From a virus, in the IMG/VR virus record IMGVR_UViG_3300045973_000349, positions 1 to 28,920 of that record: DNA of 28,920 nucleotides; one strand, given 5' to 3'. Shown in pieces: positions 20,452 through 25,775 of the stretch. The first letter of the stretch is position 1, and each line of letters begins with the position of its first letter. A program made the translations under genes and the position numbers. A model generated the notes under the pieces. That model saw only the letters and a program-made list of their open reading frames with translations, did no database searches and was not told where the DNA came from.

Positions 20452-20865
20452 TTAGAATCCTACTATCGCGTTTACCGCTGCGCCGGATTCATTGATTGCG
20501 TCTAGAGCTTCAAAGTTTATAGTCTTCGATGCTTCACCAACTGAACCAGAATAATCTTGAGTAGTTTGCACAAGACCTCTTAAAGTCCAACGCTCACCGC
20601 TTGAGCCAAGAGTACAAACGATGTCAACTGGCTGTCCGTAAAGGAATGACAAGTCAATCTCTGCCTTTGTATCTGGCACATCAAGTTCCATAGAACCTGT
20701 AATTTTTCTGTTTCCTTTTTTCCATCCTACAGATCTGTGATCTCTAGACATTGTATCAACGCGAGTGACTGCGTCGTCGATTGTCCATTTCACAGACTTA
20801 AGGTTTGCTTTTTCTGTTCCATTGATCGTGACAAATGCACGGTCACTATAAAAAGTAGTTGCCAT
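20452..20865 (-). CDS. Tail tube protein (Mu gpM-like)
   Basis: A 137-residue protein starting at ATG 20865, seven bases after AAGGAG. The position after the sheath and the beta-rich sequence with tube-type features (AFVTINGTEKANLKSVKWTI, RDHRSVGWKKGNRKITGSME, LDVPDTKAEIDLSFLYGQPV, RGLVQTTQDYSGSVGEASKT) match Mu gpM-type tube subunits that stack as rings inside the sheath. Small size and low complexity of domains agree. Its mRNA leader (20866-20914) carries a hairpin and a 27-base sequence shared with the leader of the major capsid gene, which suits a high-copy virion protein. Confidence 0.85.
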   Translation of the reverse strand: MATTFYSDRAFVTINGTEKANLKSVKWTIDDAVTRVDTMSRDHRSVGWKKGNRKITGSMELDVPDTKAEIDLSFLYGQPVDIVCTLGSSGERWTLRGLVQTTQDYSGSVGEASKTINFEALDAINESGAAVNAIVGF

Positions 20866-20879
20866 TATAAAACTCCTTG

Positions 20880-20895
20880 GCCCCTGTTCTGGGGC
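20880..20895 (-). promoter_or_regulatory. Leader hairpin before tail tube gene
   Basis: The transcript reads GCCCC AGAACA GGGGC: a five-pair all-GC stem with a six-base loop, ending one base before the AAGGAG ribosome site of the tail tube gene. There is no following U run, so it is not a standard terminator. The same stem, with a slightly different loop, stands in front of the major capsid gene at 25341-25357. Confidence 0.7.
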
Positions 20896-20917
20896 AAAAG
20901 TTGTTAGTTAAAATTTA
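20891..20917 (-). repeat. 27-base leader repeat, copy 1 (before tail tube)
   Basis: Exact 27-base match to 25353-25379; on the transcript it runs from the sheath stop codon (TAA) through TTTTAACTAACAACTTTTG into GCCCC, the 5' arm of the hairpin. The first three bases are part of the sheath stop. Apart from hairpin and ribosome site, this is the only conserved non-coding block noticed in the window. Confidence 0.85.
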
Positions 20918-22111
20918 TAAACCAGTTCCATCAAATTGCGTTGTTCCTGTGATCGCGATTCCGATGTTCGCAAGCACTGGGATCACGTTCATTGGAACGC
21001 TGTACACTGCTGCATTTCTGTTTCCTGGTAATTGGTTCACTGTGAATTGATCAGCAAACTTAGAAACGAACTGCAACATTCCGATTGACTCCATGTCTTT
21101 ACACGCAGAGATCAACTCAGACTTAAGCGCAAGCAAGACTTGAATCGAAGCTTTCGCTTGGCGATAACGAGGTTGCATTGCGATGTTGTAGAAAACTTTT
21201 CGGCAGTAATATAAAACTTGCCAGTCTTGCAAATCGTAATAAGCAATGTCTTGAATGCTTGACACAACTCTTGAAGCTGTAATCGCACGAGAGATTGCAA
21301 CCATTCCGCTTGGCAATACTTGAAGAGGAACAAGGCCCGCAGATAGTCCAAGTGCGACAGTTCCTGCATCGCCTGGTGTGTGCCAGTCAGCGTGTGAAGA
21401 CGGAGCAACAAGACCGCCAACAGATACACCGTTCAATGAATTGAATGGTACACCCATGCATGCACTGATTGCCGCCATTGCTGCAGAGACTTGATGAACG
21501 CTGTTTGCTGGTGTTGTCGCTGTATCACGAAGCCATGGCAATACAAGGTTTGAACTTGCTGCTGCAACACCCACAGGTGTGGCACTTGAAGTTTGCAAAA
21601 TTGTTGCTGCAAAACCGAATGAACCGAACTGACCATTGTCACCACGATCACTTGAAGAAATTGCAGTCATGAAACTTGATAAAGCCGTCAACGCAGCTGA
21701 ATCATCAGCCGCATAAGGGATTGCCATGTAAGGCGCTGGCATTGCTAAGAAGTTTGCAAGGAAAGCCGACAGAGTCGAACTTGCCGCAGCGTTTGCCATT
21801 GGATAAACTTTGATTGGCGGATAAACTTTATTTTGAAGGCTTGAGTAAAGAACGGCCTTGATTGCCGCAACAACCATTTCGCCGATCTCAGACCCTGCAC
21901 CGAAATATCCGTCGCACTCAGTTTGAGCAGCAACTGGATCACCATAGTTATTGATGATTGTTGGCGCGCCAACTGCAACAGTTCCGCCAGCAGCAGCAAC
22001 TCGTCCAACTAAAATAAGTTGATTGTCCGCACCTGCTAAACCGCTCACCGCAGTTGCAACAGATACTTTCACGCTTGGGTTTCTTGTAAAATTAAAAACA
22101 GGTATAGACAT
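20915..22111 (-). CDS. Contractile tail sheath protein (Mu gpL-like)
   Basis: A 398-residue protein starting at ATG 22111. It shows the layout of Mu gpL-type sheaths: a short N-terminal strand used for neighbour-subunit exchange (SIPVFNFTRNPSVKVSVATA), the PTIINNYGDP region, a variable outer domain (50s-250s), then a conserved inner C-terminal half (ISRAITASRVVSSIQDIAYY, YYCRKVFYNIAMQPRYRQAK) ending GTTQFDGTGL. The presence of this gene shows that the tail is contractile. Followed by a 49-base leader of the tail tube gene. Confidence 0.9.
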   Translation of the reverse strand: MSIPVFNFTRNPSVKVSVATAVSGLAGADNQLILVGRVAAAGGTVAVGAPTIINNYGDPVAAQTECDGYFGAGSEIGEMVVAAIKAVLYSSLQNKVYPPIKVYPMANAAASSTLSAFLANFLAMPAPYMAIPYAADDSAALTALSSFMTAISSSDRGDNGQFGSFGFAATILQTSSATPVGVAAASSNLVLPWLRDTATTPANSVHQVSAAMAAISACMGVPFNSLNGVSVGGLVAPSSHADWHTPGDAGTVALGLSAGLVPLQVLPSGMVAISRAITASRVVSSIQDIAYYDLQDWQVLYYCRKVFYNIAMQPRYRQAKASIQVLLALKSELISACKDMESIGMLQFVSKFADQFTVNQLPGNRNAAVYSVPMNVIPVLANIGIAITGTTQFDGTGL

Positions 22112-22114
22112 GAG

Positions 22115-22303
22115 TTAATCCTTTACTTCTAGAACGTCGCCATCCTTTAGCGCGTTTGTTAGTTGAGCCATTGATTCAAATTTCATTTGCTTCGGATCAA
22201 GTTCAACTGGGTCTTTTCCAATGTGAATGATCGAGCCTTTATAAAATATCGGTAACAACTTGCCAGGTGCCGCCATTACCTTAATTGGTTTGTCCAGTAA
22301 CAC
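22115..22303 (-). CDS. Small DUF2635-like protein (Mu gp38 position)
   Basis: A 62-residue protein. Start is GTG 22303 inside the end of the preceding gene: a GAGGGGG site sits about seven bases upstream of it, while the later ATG (22276) has only a badly spaced AAGG. Sequence KPIKVMAAPGKLLPIF ... NALKDGDVLEVKD is similar in order to DUF2635 proteins (K-x-A-P-G-...-L-x-D-G-D-V) located directly before the sheath in Mu-like phages. Function in Mu is unknown. The order (terminator - gp38-like - sheath) is preserved here. Confidence 0.6.
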   Translation of the reverse strand: MLLDKPIKVMAAPGKLLPIFYKGSIIHIGKDPVELDPKQMKFESMAQLTNALKDGDVLEVKD

Positions 22304-22922
22304 TCATGACCCCCTCTGGTTGTAGAACTTGTCCTGTTGGTACATCTGTGACTTTCAATAAATACTCTGTGACAAATCCAATATCTGAATTGTCCAGTGG
22401 TGCGAGCGGATCGTATTGCGATTTCAAACGCACCAGCTGTAAGTCGAACTTAAACGGAATTGTCATCTGAATAGCGGGTGCTGAGATTCCATCAAATCTT
22501 GCAAGACCTTCATAATTAAATTGAGTGCCATAACCGAATTTAATCAGGCCAGGCACGTTTGAAAAAACATTCATGCGCCCACCCATGAACCGCTGAAACA
22601 GGGAACCCACTCTGCGCTTGGCATTGAAGTCACCGTCTAAGGTAATAGGTAAAACGATCAGCCCATCAAGTGAGCCTTCAAAATATGAATCACCGGAATT
22701 AAAAGTCTCTTGCTTCCATGTGAGTAGAAGTGCGGGCAAAATTGTTTCATTCATGTTTGGACGTTTTGCGTGAAAGATTCTCTCACCATTTACACCGAAC
22801 ATCGTTTGAAACACAGGCTCTGTAATAAGTTCTTGTTTAAAAGCCTCAAGTAAGTTTGAACCAAACAGAGGACCCGTGACTTGACTAAGTGGCAGATCAA
22901 CGCGTGCGTGCTGATTACTCAT
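22281..22922 (-). CDS. Putative tail terminator / gp37-like protein
   Basis: A 213-residue protein starting at ATG 22922, overlapping the previous TGA. It lies between the gpG-like gene and the gp38-like gene, the location of Mu gp37/gpK. The sequence (LLEAFKQELITEPVFQTMFG, RPNMNETILPALLLTWKQET, LDGLIVLPITLDGDFNAKRR, PAIQMTIPFKFDLQLVRLK) resembles terminator-type subunits in having an N-terminal helix and a mixed beta sheet, but it is longer than usual and I do not see a defining motif. Its proposed role is to end tail tube growth and join tail to head. Confidence 0.55.
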   Translation of the reverse strand: MSNQHARVDLPLSQVTGPLFGSNLLEAFKQELITEPVFQTMFGVNGERIFHAKRPNMNETILPALLLTWKQETFNSGDSYFEGSLDGLIVLPITLDGDFNAKRRVGSLFQRFMGGRMNVFSNVPGLIKFGYGTQFNYEGLARFDGISAPAIQMTIPFKFDLQLVRLKSQYDPLAPLDNSDIGFVTEYLLKVTDVPTGQVLQPEGVMSVTGQTN

Positions 22923-23431
22923 GCGCCCGCCTTATTGATGAAACCCTCAACAGTCTCAGTGACCTCTTCATTATCTTTTTGACCGAAGCCTATGAACGGC
23001 CTTGCTGGTATGTGAACATTCACACCCATGAGACTCATTCCATCTGCGGTTTCGTGTAAAGATTGTACTGTAAATGTATGACCGAACTGATGAGTTGCTG
23101 CATAAGGAACATTCGTTCCCAGAGTCACATCGCTGCCTTCGGTTGATTGAATTTCATAAGGTGCATTAGAACTCGTTAAAGAATTTCTAAGCATCCCAGT
23201 GTCTTGAAGTATTTTTGCGGCATTCTTTTTCTTGCCTTTTTTTCTACCTGATAAAGTCTTCTCAGATAATGGTGCCCATTTGTTCCCGTCTGGATCAGAC
23301 TCGGCTTGAAAGACTTCGTCCTTTTGACCGATCATCACTGACAATATTGTGCGCTTTAAAGTTTCAAACTTTTCGCCTGAGAACATATCAGGGATCGAGA
23401 TTAGTTTTGAAAAGTTGAACTCAAGCTTCAT
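22919..23431 (-). CDS. Phage virion morphogenesis protein (Mu gpG / P2 gpS-like)
   Basis: A 170-residue protein starting at ATG 23431 (TAATG overlap). Family motifs are clear: ESDPDGNKWAPLSEKTL (~45-60), a Lys-rich stretch, ILQDTGMLRNSL (~74-85), VTLGTNVPYAATHQFGHTF (~102-120), VHIPARPFIGFG (~139-150). Proteins of this family complete tails or act at the head-tail joint. In Mu gpG lies between F and I; here it is after the gp36-like gene, so the block has been rearranged compared with Mu. Function assignment is good. Confidence 0.85.
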   Translation of the reverse strand: MKLEFNFSKLISIPDMFSGEKFETLKRTILSVMIGQKDEVFQAESDPDGNKWAPLSEKTLSGRKKGKKKNAAKILQDTGMLRNSLTSSNAPYEIQSTEGSDVTLGTNVPYAATHQFGHTFTVQSLHETADGMSLMGVNVHIPARPFIGFGQKDNEEVTETVEGFINKAGA

Positions 23432-23916
23432 TAGTAAAACCCGCTCCCAGAATTTCCGATTGGGTCTGTGCCGTTATCAGCCTTTGATAGGCCAATATGC
23501 TGAACCGGGGTTTGTGCGTCTTGCGCTTGATCGAGCATTAGAAACCCGTAATCAATTTTAGGATTCAATAAATCTTTGATCTGCTTTTTGTACGCTTCAC
23601 CATGCACGTTTAAAAACTTTTCAGTTGAATCAATTGTACCAGTGAGATTTCTATTCTTATCGTATCCAATGATTTCACGGATCTTGTCTTTGATTGCATT
23701 TAATACTTTGTTCTGAGCAAAGCTTGGCGACAAAGAATAAGCCGTACCTGTTTTTGTTTGAAGTGGCACGACAAACTTCTGAGCCATGTCGGCTTCAAAA
23801 TCACCAACTGCTCGTTGAATGATTTCCAATTTCTTAGCACTCTCGCTGTCTGAGTAATTTAAATCTTGCAGGACCCAGCCATAAGATTGATCAGAAATGT
23901 AAATGGAAAAAGCCAT
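23431..23916 (-). CDS. Head-tail connector, gp36-like (DUF1320 type)
   Basis: A 161-residue protein starting at ATG 23916 after GGAG. Residues ~30-75 have the pattern of gp36/DUF1320 adaptor proteins (AVGDFEADMAQKFVVPLQTK, FAQNKVLNAIKDKIREIIGY), and the segment FLNVHGEAYKKQIKDLLNPK matches the 'Y...I..L' helix at the end of such domains. Its C-terminus is an extended polar tail (HIGLSKADNGTDPIGNSGSG). The position between capsid and tail genes supports a head-completion connector below the portal. Confidence 0.65.
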   Translation of the reverse strand: MAFSIYISDQSYGWVLQDLNYSDSESAKKLEIIQRAVGDFEADMAQKFVVPLQTKTGTAYSLSPSFAQNKVLNAIKDKIREIIGYDKNRNLTGTIDSTEKFLNVHGEAYKKQIKDLLNPKIDYGFLMLDQAQDAQTPVQHIGLSKADNGTDPIGNSGSGFY

Positions 23917-23922
23917 TTGTCA

Positions 23923-24132
23923 TTACTCCAAAATGTTTGCGATACTCTCGCCGTGCGCGCTTTGTAAGTGCTTAAGGTCCTCTTGTGAAACGTCACAATG
24001 TTGACCACTGATAAGCTCAACACCGCTTGGTAGAACCATGTTGACTTTTGATTTGTACATTTTCTTTTTCATCACTGATGCTTCAGATTTAACTTCAGCC
24101 TCTGGTGAAATCATTTTAACTGGCTTTGCCAT
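23923..24132 (-). CDS. Small hypothetical head-region protein
   Basis: A 69-residue protein. I chose ATG 24132 because GGAG lies six bases before it; an in-frame ATG at 24144 has no ribosome site. The sequence begins AKPVKMISPEAEVKSEAS, with Lys-rich KKKMYKSKVNM, then VLPSGVELISGQHCDVSQED and a helical end LKHLQSAHGESIANILE. It sits where Mu gp35 lies (between capsid and gp36) but similarity to FluMu-type gp35 is not obvious beyond position and size. Unknown function. Confidence 0.55.
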   Translation of the reverse strand: MAKPVKMISPEAEVKSEASVMKKKMYKSKVNMVLPSGVELISGQHCDVSQEDLKHLQSAHGESIANILE

Positions 24133-24164
24133 GAGATACTCCATTGATTAGAGTTTGAAAGCGA

Positions 24165-24186
24165 TGCTAGGGTTTTCACCCTAGCA
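24165..24186 (-). promoter_or_regulatory. Perfect 9-bp hairpin with GAAA tetraloop after capsid gene
   Basis: On the transcript TGCTAGGGT GAAA ACCCTAGCA: nine perfect pairs closed by a GNRA loop, about 53 bases after the capsid stop codon. The downstream bases (TCGCTTTC) lack a U run, so a rho-independent terminator is not convincing; an mRNA-stabilising or processing hairpin between the highly expressed capsid cistron and later genes is more likely. Confidence 0.7.
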
Positions 24187-24224
24187 CCGTGGAATTGATT
24201 TCAAATCCATTTTCAATCAAACCC

Positions 24225-24236
24225 TAGTCGCGACTA
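24225..24236. repeat. 12-base perfect palindrome
   Basis: TAGTCGCGACTA, perfectly self-complementary, two bases after the capsid stop codon and 38 bases before the GAAA hairpin on the transcript. The next bases (CTAGGGT, overlapping its end) repeat the 5' arm of that hairpin. Could be a protein-binding site or simply secondary structure. Confidence 0.55.
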
Positions 24237-24238
24237 AA

Positions 24239-25327
24239 TTAAATTCCTGATTTTCCGTTGATGACTAGAACGTCGTTTCTGCGAAGTAAGTTCGCGCCGC
24301 CGTTGAAACCAGTAACGATGTCAACCCATGGAGACTTGCGATGTTGCAATCCCAATTCGTCAACAAAGGAATAGATTCCAATTGCAGGACTCTCAACAGA
24401 CGCTGATGGGTCGTTTATGTTGTAAGTCATTTGGATTTCGCCGTAACCGTCATATAAAGATCCGCCGAAGTCAGCCACTGCTAGAACTTTAAAGTCTGGC
24501 ACGAAGTACTGAGCGTTGCCTTGAACAACTCTACCAGCAACGATAGATTGATCTTGCCAAGCATCTTTACAAACTCGGAATGGCGGAAGACCTGGATAAA
24601 GAATATCTTTTGCTTTATTCAAGTCACCAGTTGCCATCGAGTTATTGATTACGATGTTGCGAACTTCAGCAGAGTTTAAAATCGCCGCTGCAGTTACTGG
24701 ATTGATGATAAATTCTTTTACGATGTACTTACGATAAACTGCGTTTCCAACAAGAATTGCAAGCAAGTCTTTCATTGGAGTTGCACTTGATGCGATTGAC
24801 CAATCAGTTCCTGCAGTCACAGTGTTAGCTGTTGGAACTGCGAAATCAAATTTAGTCACACCTTGATAAGTGTACTTACCAGTTAAAAGAGTATCCCAAG
24901 CCATTTTGTTTAAACGGTTGTTCAATTTAACTTTTAAGTCTTCACCAGCGCGGCTCATGAAATCAAGAACGCCGCTAGTCAAGCCAGTCGCTCCACGATC
25001 ACCGATTGAACCAAGTCTGCGTAAAGCGATAAGATCTCTCTCACCGAATCGTTTAGCTTCTTGATAAGCACCAGGTGAGAACTCGAATGTTTCAGAGCTA
25101 GAAGCTGCCCCTGCAACACCCTCTTCGCCAAGTACGCGTTCTTTTAAAAGACCGCCGAATCCTGACACCATTTCAGTATAAACCAAATGTTGAGGATACG
25201 CTTTGATAGGCATTAATTTAAGACCAAGCTGCTCGCCTGGCTTTGCTGTAATTTCGTCAACGACTGCGCCGATGACTGCTGTTTCTCTTTGGCCGATGAT
25301 CCCGGCTAAGCTATGTAACTTTCTCAT
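24239..25327 (-). CDS. Major capsid protein, lambda gpE-like
   Basis: A 362-residue protein starting at ATG 25327, six bases after GGGAG. Sequence and order (decoration then capsid) match the lambda gpE-type HK97-fold capsid family: long N-terminal strand and E-loop (HLVYTEMVSGFGGLLKERVL, RFGERDLIALRRLG), a helical spine (DLKVKLNNRLNKMAWDTLLT, GKYTYQG), NSAEVRNIVINNSMAT, LPPFRVCKDAWQDQ, YFVPDFKVLAVADFGGSLYD, ending NVLVINGKSGI-type. It assembles into the head shell. It is preceded by the repeat/hairpin leader at 25341-25379 shared with the tail tube gene. Confidence 0.88.
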   Translation of the reverse strand: MRKLHSLAGIIGQRETAVIGAVVDEITAKPGEQLGLKLMPIKAYPQHLVYTEMVSGFGGLLKERVLGEEGVAGAASSSETFEFSPGAYQEAKRFGERDLIALRRLGSIGDRGATGLTSGVLDFMSRAGEDLKVKLNNRLNKMAWDTLLTGKYTYQGVTKFDFAVPTANTVTAGTDWSIASSATPMKDLLAILVGNAVYRKYIVKEFIINPVTAAAILNSAEVRNIVINNSMATGDLNKAKDILYPGLPPFRVCKDAWQDQSIVAGRVVQGNAQYFVPDFKVLAVADFGGSLYDGYGEIQMTYNINDPSASVESPAIGIYSFVDELGLQHRKSPWVDIVTGFNGGANLLRRNDVLVINGKSGI

Positions 25328-25340
25328 TGAAAACTCCCAG

Positions 25341-25357
25341 GCCCCTAGTTATGGGGC
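25341..25357 (-). promoter_or_regulatory. Leader hairpin before major capsid gene
   Basis: Transcript GCCCC ATAACTA GGGGC, a five-pair GC stem with a seven-base loop two bases before the GGGAG ribosome site of the capsid gene. Same stem as at 20880-20895 with a changed loop; no U run follows. Stem conserved while loop varies is what one expects of a functional structure. Confidence 0.7.
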
Positions 25358-25379
25358 AAAAGTTGTTAGTTAAAATTTA
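25353..25379 (-). repeat. 27-base leader repeat, copy 2 (before major capsid)
   Basis: Exact 27-base match to 20891-20917. Here it is entirely non-coding, six bases after the decoration protein stop. It ends in the 5' arm of the hairpin. Confidence 0.85.
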
Positions 25380-25385
25380 GTAGAC

Positions 25386-25775
25386 TTACTTATTATCTAA
25401 TTCGATTTCGTCAGTTTCGATCATGCGGAAACCACAAGCTGCAACCATGTCACCGGAAACTAATCCGCCAGCTGTGTTTGCATCAAGGATTGCGCTCATT
25501 ACGAAATAGCCCTTGAAGAACGCAGCCGCAAAAGCGTCTTGTCCTGCAACAACTTTAATTTCGTCCATAGCGATGCGAACTGCACCTAATGCCATTGTAT
25601 CTGTTCCGTGAACATACACATGGTATTTTCCGTTTGATGATTGTTTCACAAGAAGCGCGCCACGGGGAATAATCCCATCAGCTGCAATTCCTGCACCGTC
25701 AATTATGCACTTGCTAGCAAGAGCTTTGTCATCGAATCGGCTAACGATTGCGACATTTGTAATTACTGGATTCAT
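25386..25775 (-). CDS. Head decoration protein (lambda gpD-type)
   Basis: A 129-residue protein whose ATG (25775) overlaps the TGA of the protease/scaffold gene (ATGA). The pattern IIPRGALLVKQSSNGKYHVY, ALGAVRIAMDEIKVVAGQDA, AFFKGYFVMSAILDANTAGG fits HDPD-type decoration proteins: a G-x-L strand, a 'vGi...d' strand and a hydrophobic strand followed by a conserved loop. It sits between scaffold and capsid genes, as lambda gpD does. Such trimers stabilise the expanded capsid. Confidence good but length is slightly greater than lambda D. Confidence 0.8.
   Translation of the reverse strand: MNPVITNVAIVSRFDDKALASKCIIDGAGIAADGIIPRGALLVKQSSNGKYHVYVHGTDTMALGAVRIAMDEIKVVAGQDAFAAAFFKGYFVMSAILDANTAGGLVSGDMVAACGFRMIETDEIELDNK

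Follow-up and report, generated by a model that had tools for sequence, protein, structure and literature searches.

A duplicated leader with a GC-rich hairpin precedes the major capsid and tail tube genes of an uncultured tailed phage

The major capsid and tail tube genes of an uncultured tailed phage are each preceded by a copy of the same 50-base leader, which carries a GC-rich hairpin and the Shine-Dalgarno (SD) site of the gene that follows. To judge from alignment and folding models, the duplicated leader is a real, regulatory-looking and lineage-specific element, its effect on the two genes being a prediction. We consider it possible, with a probability of roughly 40%, that a cis-acting RNA hairpin damps or gates translation initiation at both genes by pairing with the SD. 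We regard the repeat and its GC hairpin as secure, and infer from them that the fold is adopted in vivo and has an effect on translation.

A 50-base leader present at two gene starts

The structural genes of the window (the whole 28,920-nucleotide stretch analysed here) all lie on the minus strand, and the features discussed below are collected in Table 1. The original prediction had described an exact 27-base block leading into a GC hairpin in the leaders of the shell and tube genes. The 27-mer TAAATTTTAACTAACAACTTTTGCCCC is indeed found exactly twice in the window, on the minus strand in both cases (0 expected in 100 shuffles), and the stems GCCCC/GGGGC are identical, with the loops AGAACA and ATAACTA as described. 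The arrangement GCCCC-N-GGGGC is confined to the same two sites, again with 0 expected by chance. The true unit turned out to be larger. When one gap is allowed in the loop, 46 of 50 aligned columns (92%) are identical, from a start at TAAATTTTAAC / TAAATTTT through the GC hairpin and the SD site to a GTTTT end. Since this agreement runs through to GTTTT, the SD belongs to the repeat. The distance from the end of the repeat to the ATG is 3 nt for the tube gene and 2 nt for the capsid gene. No other exact repeat in the window reaches 18 nt. No U run follows the GC hairpin in either orientation in either copy, which bears out the earlier view that these are not ordinary intrinsic terminators.

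Table 1. Coordinates of the leader copies, their parts and the adjoining genes in the window
Feature	Position	Strand	Details	Evidence
Repeat, copy 1	20869-20917	-	Tail tube leader; begins at the sheath gene's TAA stop	Sequence, alignment
Repeat, copy 2	25330-25379	-	Major capsid leader; begins 6 nt past the TAA of the upstream gene	Sequence, alignment
Exact 27-base block, copy 1	20891-20917	-		
Exact 27-base block, copy 2	25353-25379	-		
GC hairpin, copy 1	20880-20895	-	GCCCC-AGAACA-GGGGC	
GC hairpin, copy 2	25341-25357	-	GCCCC-ATAACTA-GGGGC	
Extended stem-loop, copy 1 (predicted)	20871-20902	-	AACUUUU (20902-20896) with AGGAGUU (20877-20871); SD AAGGAG (20878-20873) occluded	
Extended stem-loop, copy 2 (predicted)	25332-25364	-	AACUUUU (25364-25358) with GGGAGUU (25338-25332); SD GGGAG (25338-25334) occluded	
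Tail tube protein gene	20452-20865	-	137 aa; phrog_185	
Major capsid protein gene	24239-25327	-	362 aa; Phage_cap_E, phrog_29	
Tail sheath gene	20915-22111	-	Adjoins copy 1 on its upstream side; itself without the element	
Small gene	25386-25775	-	129 aa; adjoins copy 2 on its upstream side	

The family matches of the two downstream genes agree with their original assignment as shell and tube genes. The product of the 129-aa gene is, from its position, a probable decoration or head protein. The element had also been linked to the large number of copies in which shell and tube subunits are needed. In contractile tails, sheath and tube are needed in equal number. The shell and tube genes do carry the element, but the start of the sheath gene is without it and, in the folding of leaders from 36 start sites, has an accessible SD, and the argument from copy number is therefore weak.

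Predicted fold of the leaders and its statistical weight

In the folding model, one and the same 12-pair stem, interrupted by a 2-base bulge, is obtained for both 55-base leaders, with energies of -13.8 and -13.1 kcal/mol. The GC hairpin forms the top of this stem. Below the bulge, AACUUUU, which belongs to the end of the 27-base block, forms pairs with AGGAGUU in the tube leader and GGGAGUU in the capsid leader, and the SD is thus predicted to sit within the stem. In this respect the original description, in which the hairpin ended one to two bases before the SD, did not hold; the predicted stem extends across the SD in both copies. Among the 36 start-site leaders of the window, compared as 40-base leaders, those of the tube and capsid genes rank 1 and 2 for stability, and the predicted accessibility of the SD is low in both (0.15 and 0.10). 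Opening the lower stem to free the SD would cost about 3.5 kcal/mol. Pairing with the anti-SD is worth -6.8 to -7.9 kcal/mol, and because opening costs less than this pairing yields, the hairpin would be a brake rather than a lock. The predicted effect of SD occlusion on translation may accordingly be small.

The differences between the two copies spare the predicted structure. All six fall in the loop, in the bulge, in one pair that changes from U-A to U-G, or in the spacer before the ATG. When an equal number of changes was placed at random, assuming a single copying of the whole unit followed by random change, the 12 pairs survived in 4.5% of cases, the 27-mer was spared in 0.8%, and both occurred in 0.016%. 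There are just two copies, and so the alignment holds no independent covariation. Shuffling gave less weight to the pairing of the SD itself. The 7-pair extension covering the SD, a geometry defined only after it had been seen, was produced by 3.3% and 5.0% of shuffles of the upstream block when the copies were taken singly and in 2.2% with both tails. Plain occlusion of the SD was equalled by 17-30% of shuffled upstream sequences and by 11-16% of random 22-mers from the window, and with 75-95 bases of context the fold energy was no better than that of shuffles (z -0.1 to -1.4). The SD pairing is only marginally beyond chance, at about 0.02 at best and 0.1-0.3 in the other tests. Masking of the SD by the lower stem is a plausible prediction of the folding model.

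Distribution of the element and origin of the duplication

Searches of IMG/VR with the sheath and capsid proteins gave four distinct syntenic relatives: L007 (with the near-identical L005), at 56-68% identity for sheath, capsid and tube, L006 at 45-55%, L009 at 36-46% and L011 at about 30%. This search may omit the records closest to the window, and closer relatives bearing the element may exist. Single-protein or alignment scans of genome contigs and viral contigs gave few or no relatives.

In none of the four syntenic relatives does the element precede the capsid or tube gene, and the leaders that they have at these genes either are short or fold weakly. A covariance model of the element, the search that the original prediction had proposed, was run on the relatives and recovered nothing beyond the two copies in the window. 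A 15-base match to the model in L020 (E 0.23) was discarded, as it lies antisense to the genes of that relative and has no hairpin. In alignments of the element with the leaders of the relatives, the best was to the capsid leader of L006, which 31 of 500 shuffles equalled and which is not significant. Blastn of the element against 50,697 phage records and 72,556 plasmid records gave no match, and a gapped pattern of the element had no matches in IMG/VR. An exact 18-mer scan of IMG/VR pointed to two contigs with the same GC-rich, unrelated sequence, which has neither a hairpin nor a similarly placed start codon and was put down to chance.

Taking into account that the four syntenic relatives are without the element and that the covariance model finds the window copies only, the element is, on this sequence comparison, a recent and lineage-specific duplication of a translation-initiation cassette. 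Absence from close relatives and a recent recombination scar had both been named in the original prediction as observations that would speak against it. The relatives lacking the element stand at about 30-68% protein identity, and to that extent each of these observations has been made in part.

Possible functions of the leader

The shared unit is an initiation region on the sense strand that abuts and includes the SD, and this favours an action on mRNA. A leader acting on mRNA or translation still represents the best class, as originally proposed; the SD predicted to lie in the stem favours damping or gating at least equally with the stabilising or enhancing role put forward at first. In the mechanism that we tentatively prefer, the duplicated cassette would consist of a 15-base unpaired A/U-rich stretch followed by a stem-loop with a stable GC-rich top, whose weaker lower part would pair the U tract AACUUUU with the SD. 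With the SD partly occluded on the late polycistronic transcript, ribosomes would load more slowly, or in a gated manner, at the capsid and tube genes, and their entry at these two genes could be set independently of the neighbouring genes. That the known relatives manage without the element counts against this mechanism. Possible means of opening the hairpin are the ribosome itself, re-initiation from the gene upstream, and a binding protein. It is even conceivable, and in our estimate quite improbable, that both leaders are a shared RNA operator through which one trans-acting factor co-regulates shell and tube translation and keeps the two self-polymerising subunits in step during assembly; the structural operon of the phage would then contain a post-transcriptional regulon of two genes. 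If the leader is functional at all, it would be a compact, portable ribosome-site hairpin copied by the phage to a second structural gene, and a natural example of a phage tuning single genes within one long late mRNA.

The main functional rival to SD gating, itself rather unlikely, is a leader for mRNA processing and stabilisation. After a cut by RNase E or a similar enzyme in the single-stranded A/U-rich stretch, the hairpin would lie close to the new 5' end and protect a shorter, stable capsid or tube mRNA. In the single-stranded UAAAUUUUAAC the RNase E core motif RN|WUU (PMC5222698) is indeed matched at overlapping positions, but the motif is very common: the minus strand of the window has 708 such matches. 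A precedent is found in T4, where RNase E cleaves the mRNAs of gene 32 at a site 71 nt ahead of the start (PMC3014915). The capsid gene of the window is followed by a very stable structured region (-40.8 kcal/mol, z -5.8), and with this region the capsid mRNA would have hairpins at both ends; however, a post-capsid structure is also present in relatives without the leader element, and the tube gene, with the following gene starting 3 nt on, has no 3' structure. Nor does the sheath, of which as many copies are needed as of the tube, have a leader of this kind.

It is doubtful to the same degree as processing, though worth weighing, that one leader was recently copied to another gene by recombination or gene conversion and has no regulatory role beyond providing a usable SD. 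The 92% identity of the copies, their absence from the four syntenic relatives and from the phage and plasmid records, and the weak results of the SD-pairing shuffle tests fit this explanation, and the copied unit simply contains the SD. Against it, the differences between the copies spare both 27-mer and stem, an outcome seen in 0.016% of random placements, the GC hairpin lies well outside what chance would give, and landing at exactly the capsid and tube starts among 36 would have to be a coincidence. If non-functional, the repeat would be a case of leader copying between genes in a phage genome. A site at the DNA level, such as a late promoter, an activator site or another protein-binding site with the dyad read in duplex DNA, is less likely than damping, processing or copying, and we regard it as improbable. 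Mu-type phages employ activated late promoters, and a conserved block with an inverted repeat does sit upstream of two late genes. Nevertheless, the two copies have no promoter-like hexamers in common, promoter-like matches in the region stay below the shuffled number (12 vs 16.9), and a dyad that abuts the SD with a gap of 1-2 bases, in a repeat that crosses the SD, fits RNA better. Damping, processing, copying and a DNA site are not all mutually exclusive.

Comparison with known leader elements

The element is most aptly placed as a new example of start-proximal leader hairpins, assigned to no family. A search of Rfam gave no family at gathering score and none relevant at E values up to 10. 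The nearest described kinds are the SAS/ESAS elements, fourU thermometers and the T4 gene 32 and 43 leaders; the element has features of layout in common with each of these and matches none of them in full. In cluster K mycobacteriophages, SAS/ESAS are repeated blocks at translation starts that contain the SD core. Roughly half of them are immediately preceded by an inverted repeat, and a role in initiation has been proposed. The leader resembles them in that a block including the SD is repeated at gene starts, two in this case. The SAS, however, has a 13-bp consensus, GGGATAGGAGCCC, which is absent from the repeat, and is present in 11-19 copies per genome, at non-structural genes only and conserved in the cluster, whereas the present element has 50 bases and two copies, at structural genes of one lineage.

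The leader of T7 gene 10, which encodes the major capsid protein, has a hairpin first and then an A/U-rich stretch, and leaves the SD open. Hairpin, A/U-rich stretch and SD likewise lie ahead of the major capsid gene here, but the present hairpin abuts the SD and is predicted to overlap it. The processed leader of T4 gene 32 and the translational operator of gene 43 each serve one gene and have a known cut or protein partner (PMC3014915). Like them, our element is a structured leader close to the SD of phage genes; it differs in serving two genes and in having no known protein partner or cut. The UAAC in the loop of the capsid leader recalls the loop of the gene 43 operator, a likeness too short to be meaningful.

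FourU thermometers are of the agsA type and have been described in a phage, at blyA of SP-beta (PMC10586365). As in these, the predicted minimum free energy structures place UUUU opposite AGGA (tube) or GGGA (capsid) before the start codon. In contrast to a thermometer, the predicted unpaired probability of the SD changes little from 10 to 42 °C and is still low at 50 °C. In the folding model the SD stays mostly paired across 10-50 °C on account of the GC-rich upper stem, and no switch is therefore predicted near 25-42 °C; we set aside a temperature switch as without support from the model.

Post-capsid structure and phage type

Strongly structured intergenic regions after the capsid gene are present in the window (24133-24238, minus strand) and in L007 (5812-5925), L006 (5586-5725) and L009 (5504-5590). 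In these four, 0 of 200 shuffles folded as well; the corresponding region of L011 was not significant. The regions have no obvious sequence similarity by eye, and those of L006 and L009 have a T-rich, terminator-like tail after the stem. They look like a terminator or 3' stabiliser conserved in position.

The capsid and sheath proteins had no tblastn match among 50,697 phage records, and the phage group is, at the level of sequence, remote from isolates. The original prediction had treated the phage as Mu-like, and some proteins do match Mu-type families (Phage_Mu_F). Despite these matches the analysis lends the label no support, since G002 (46,780 bases), the closest long relative, encodes a tyrosine integrase (L017, 3175-4320), a CI-like regulator and a Terminase_2 small subunit (L019, 2224-2757). 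The integrase and the terminase subunit make the phage group look like temperate phages of the integrase type and not like transposable ones. The first 18-base word of the G002 contig (position 1) recurs at 46559 and 46685, inside a repeat-bearing coding stretch, and could represent a terminal overlap or a repetitive gene.
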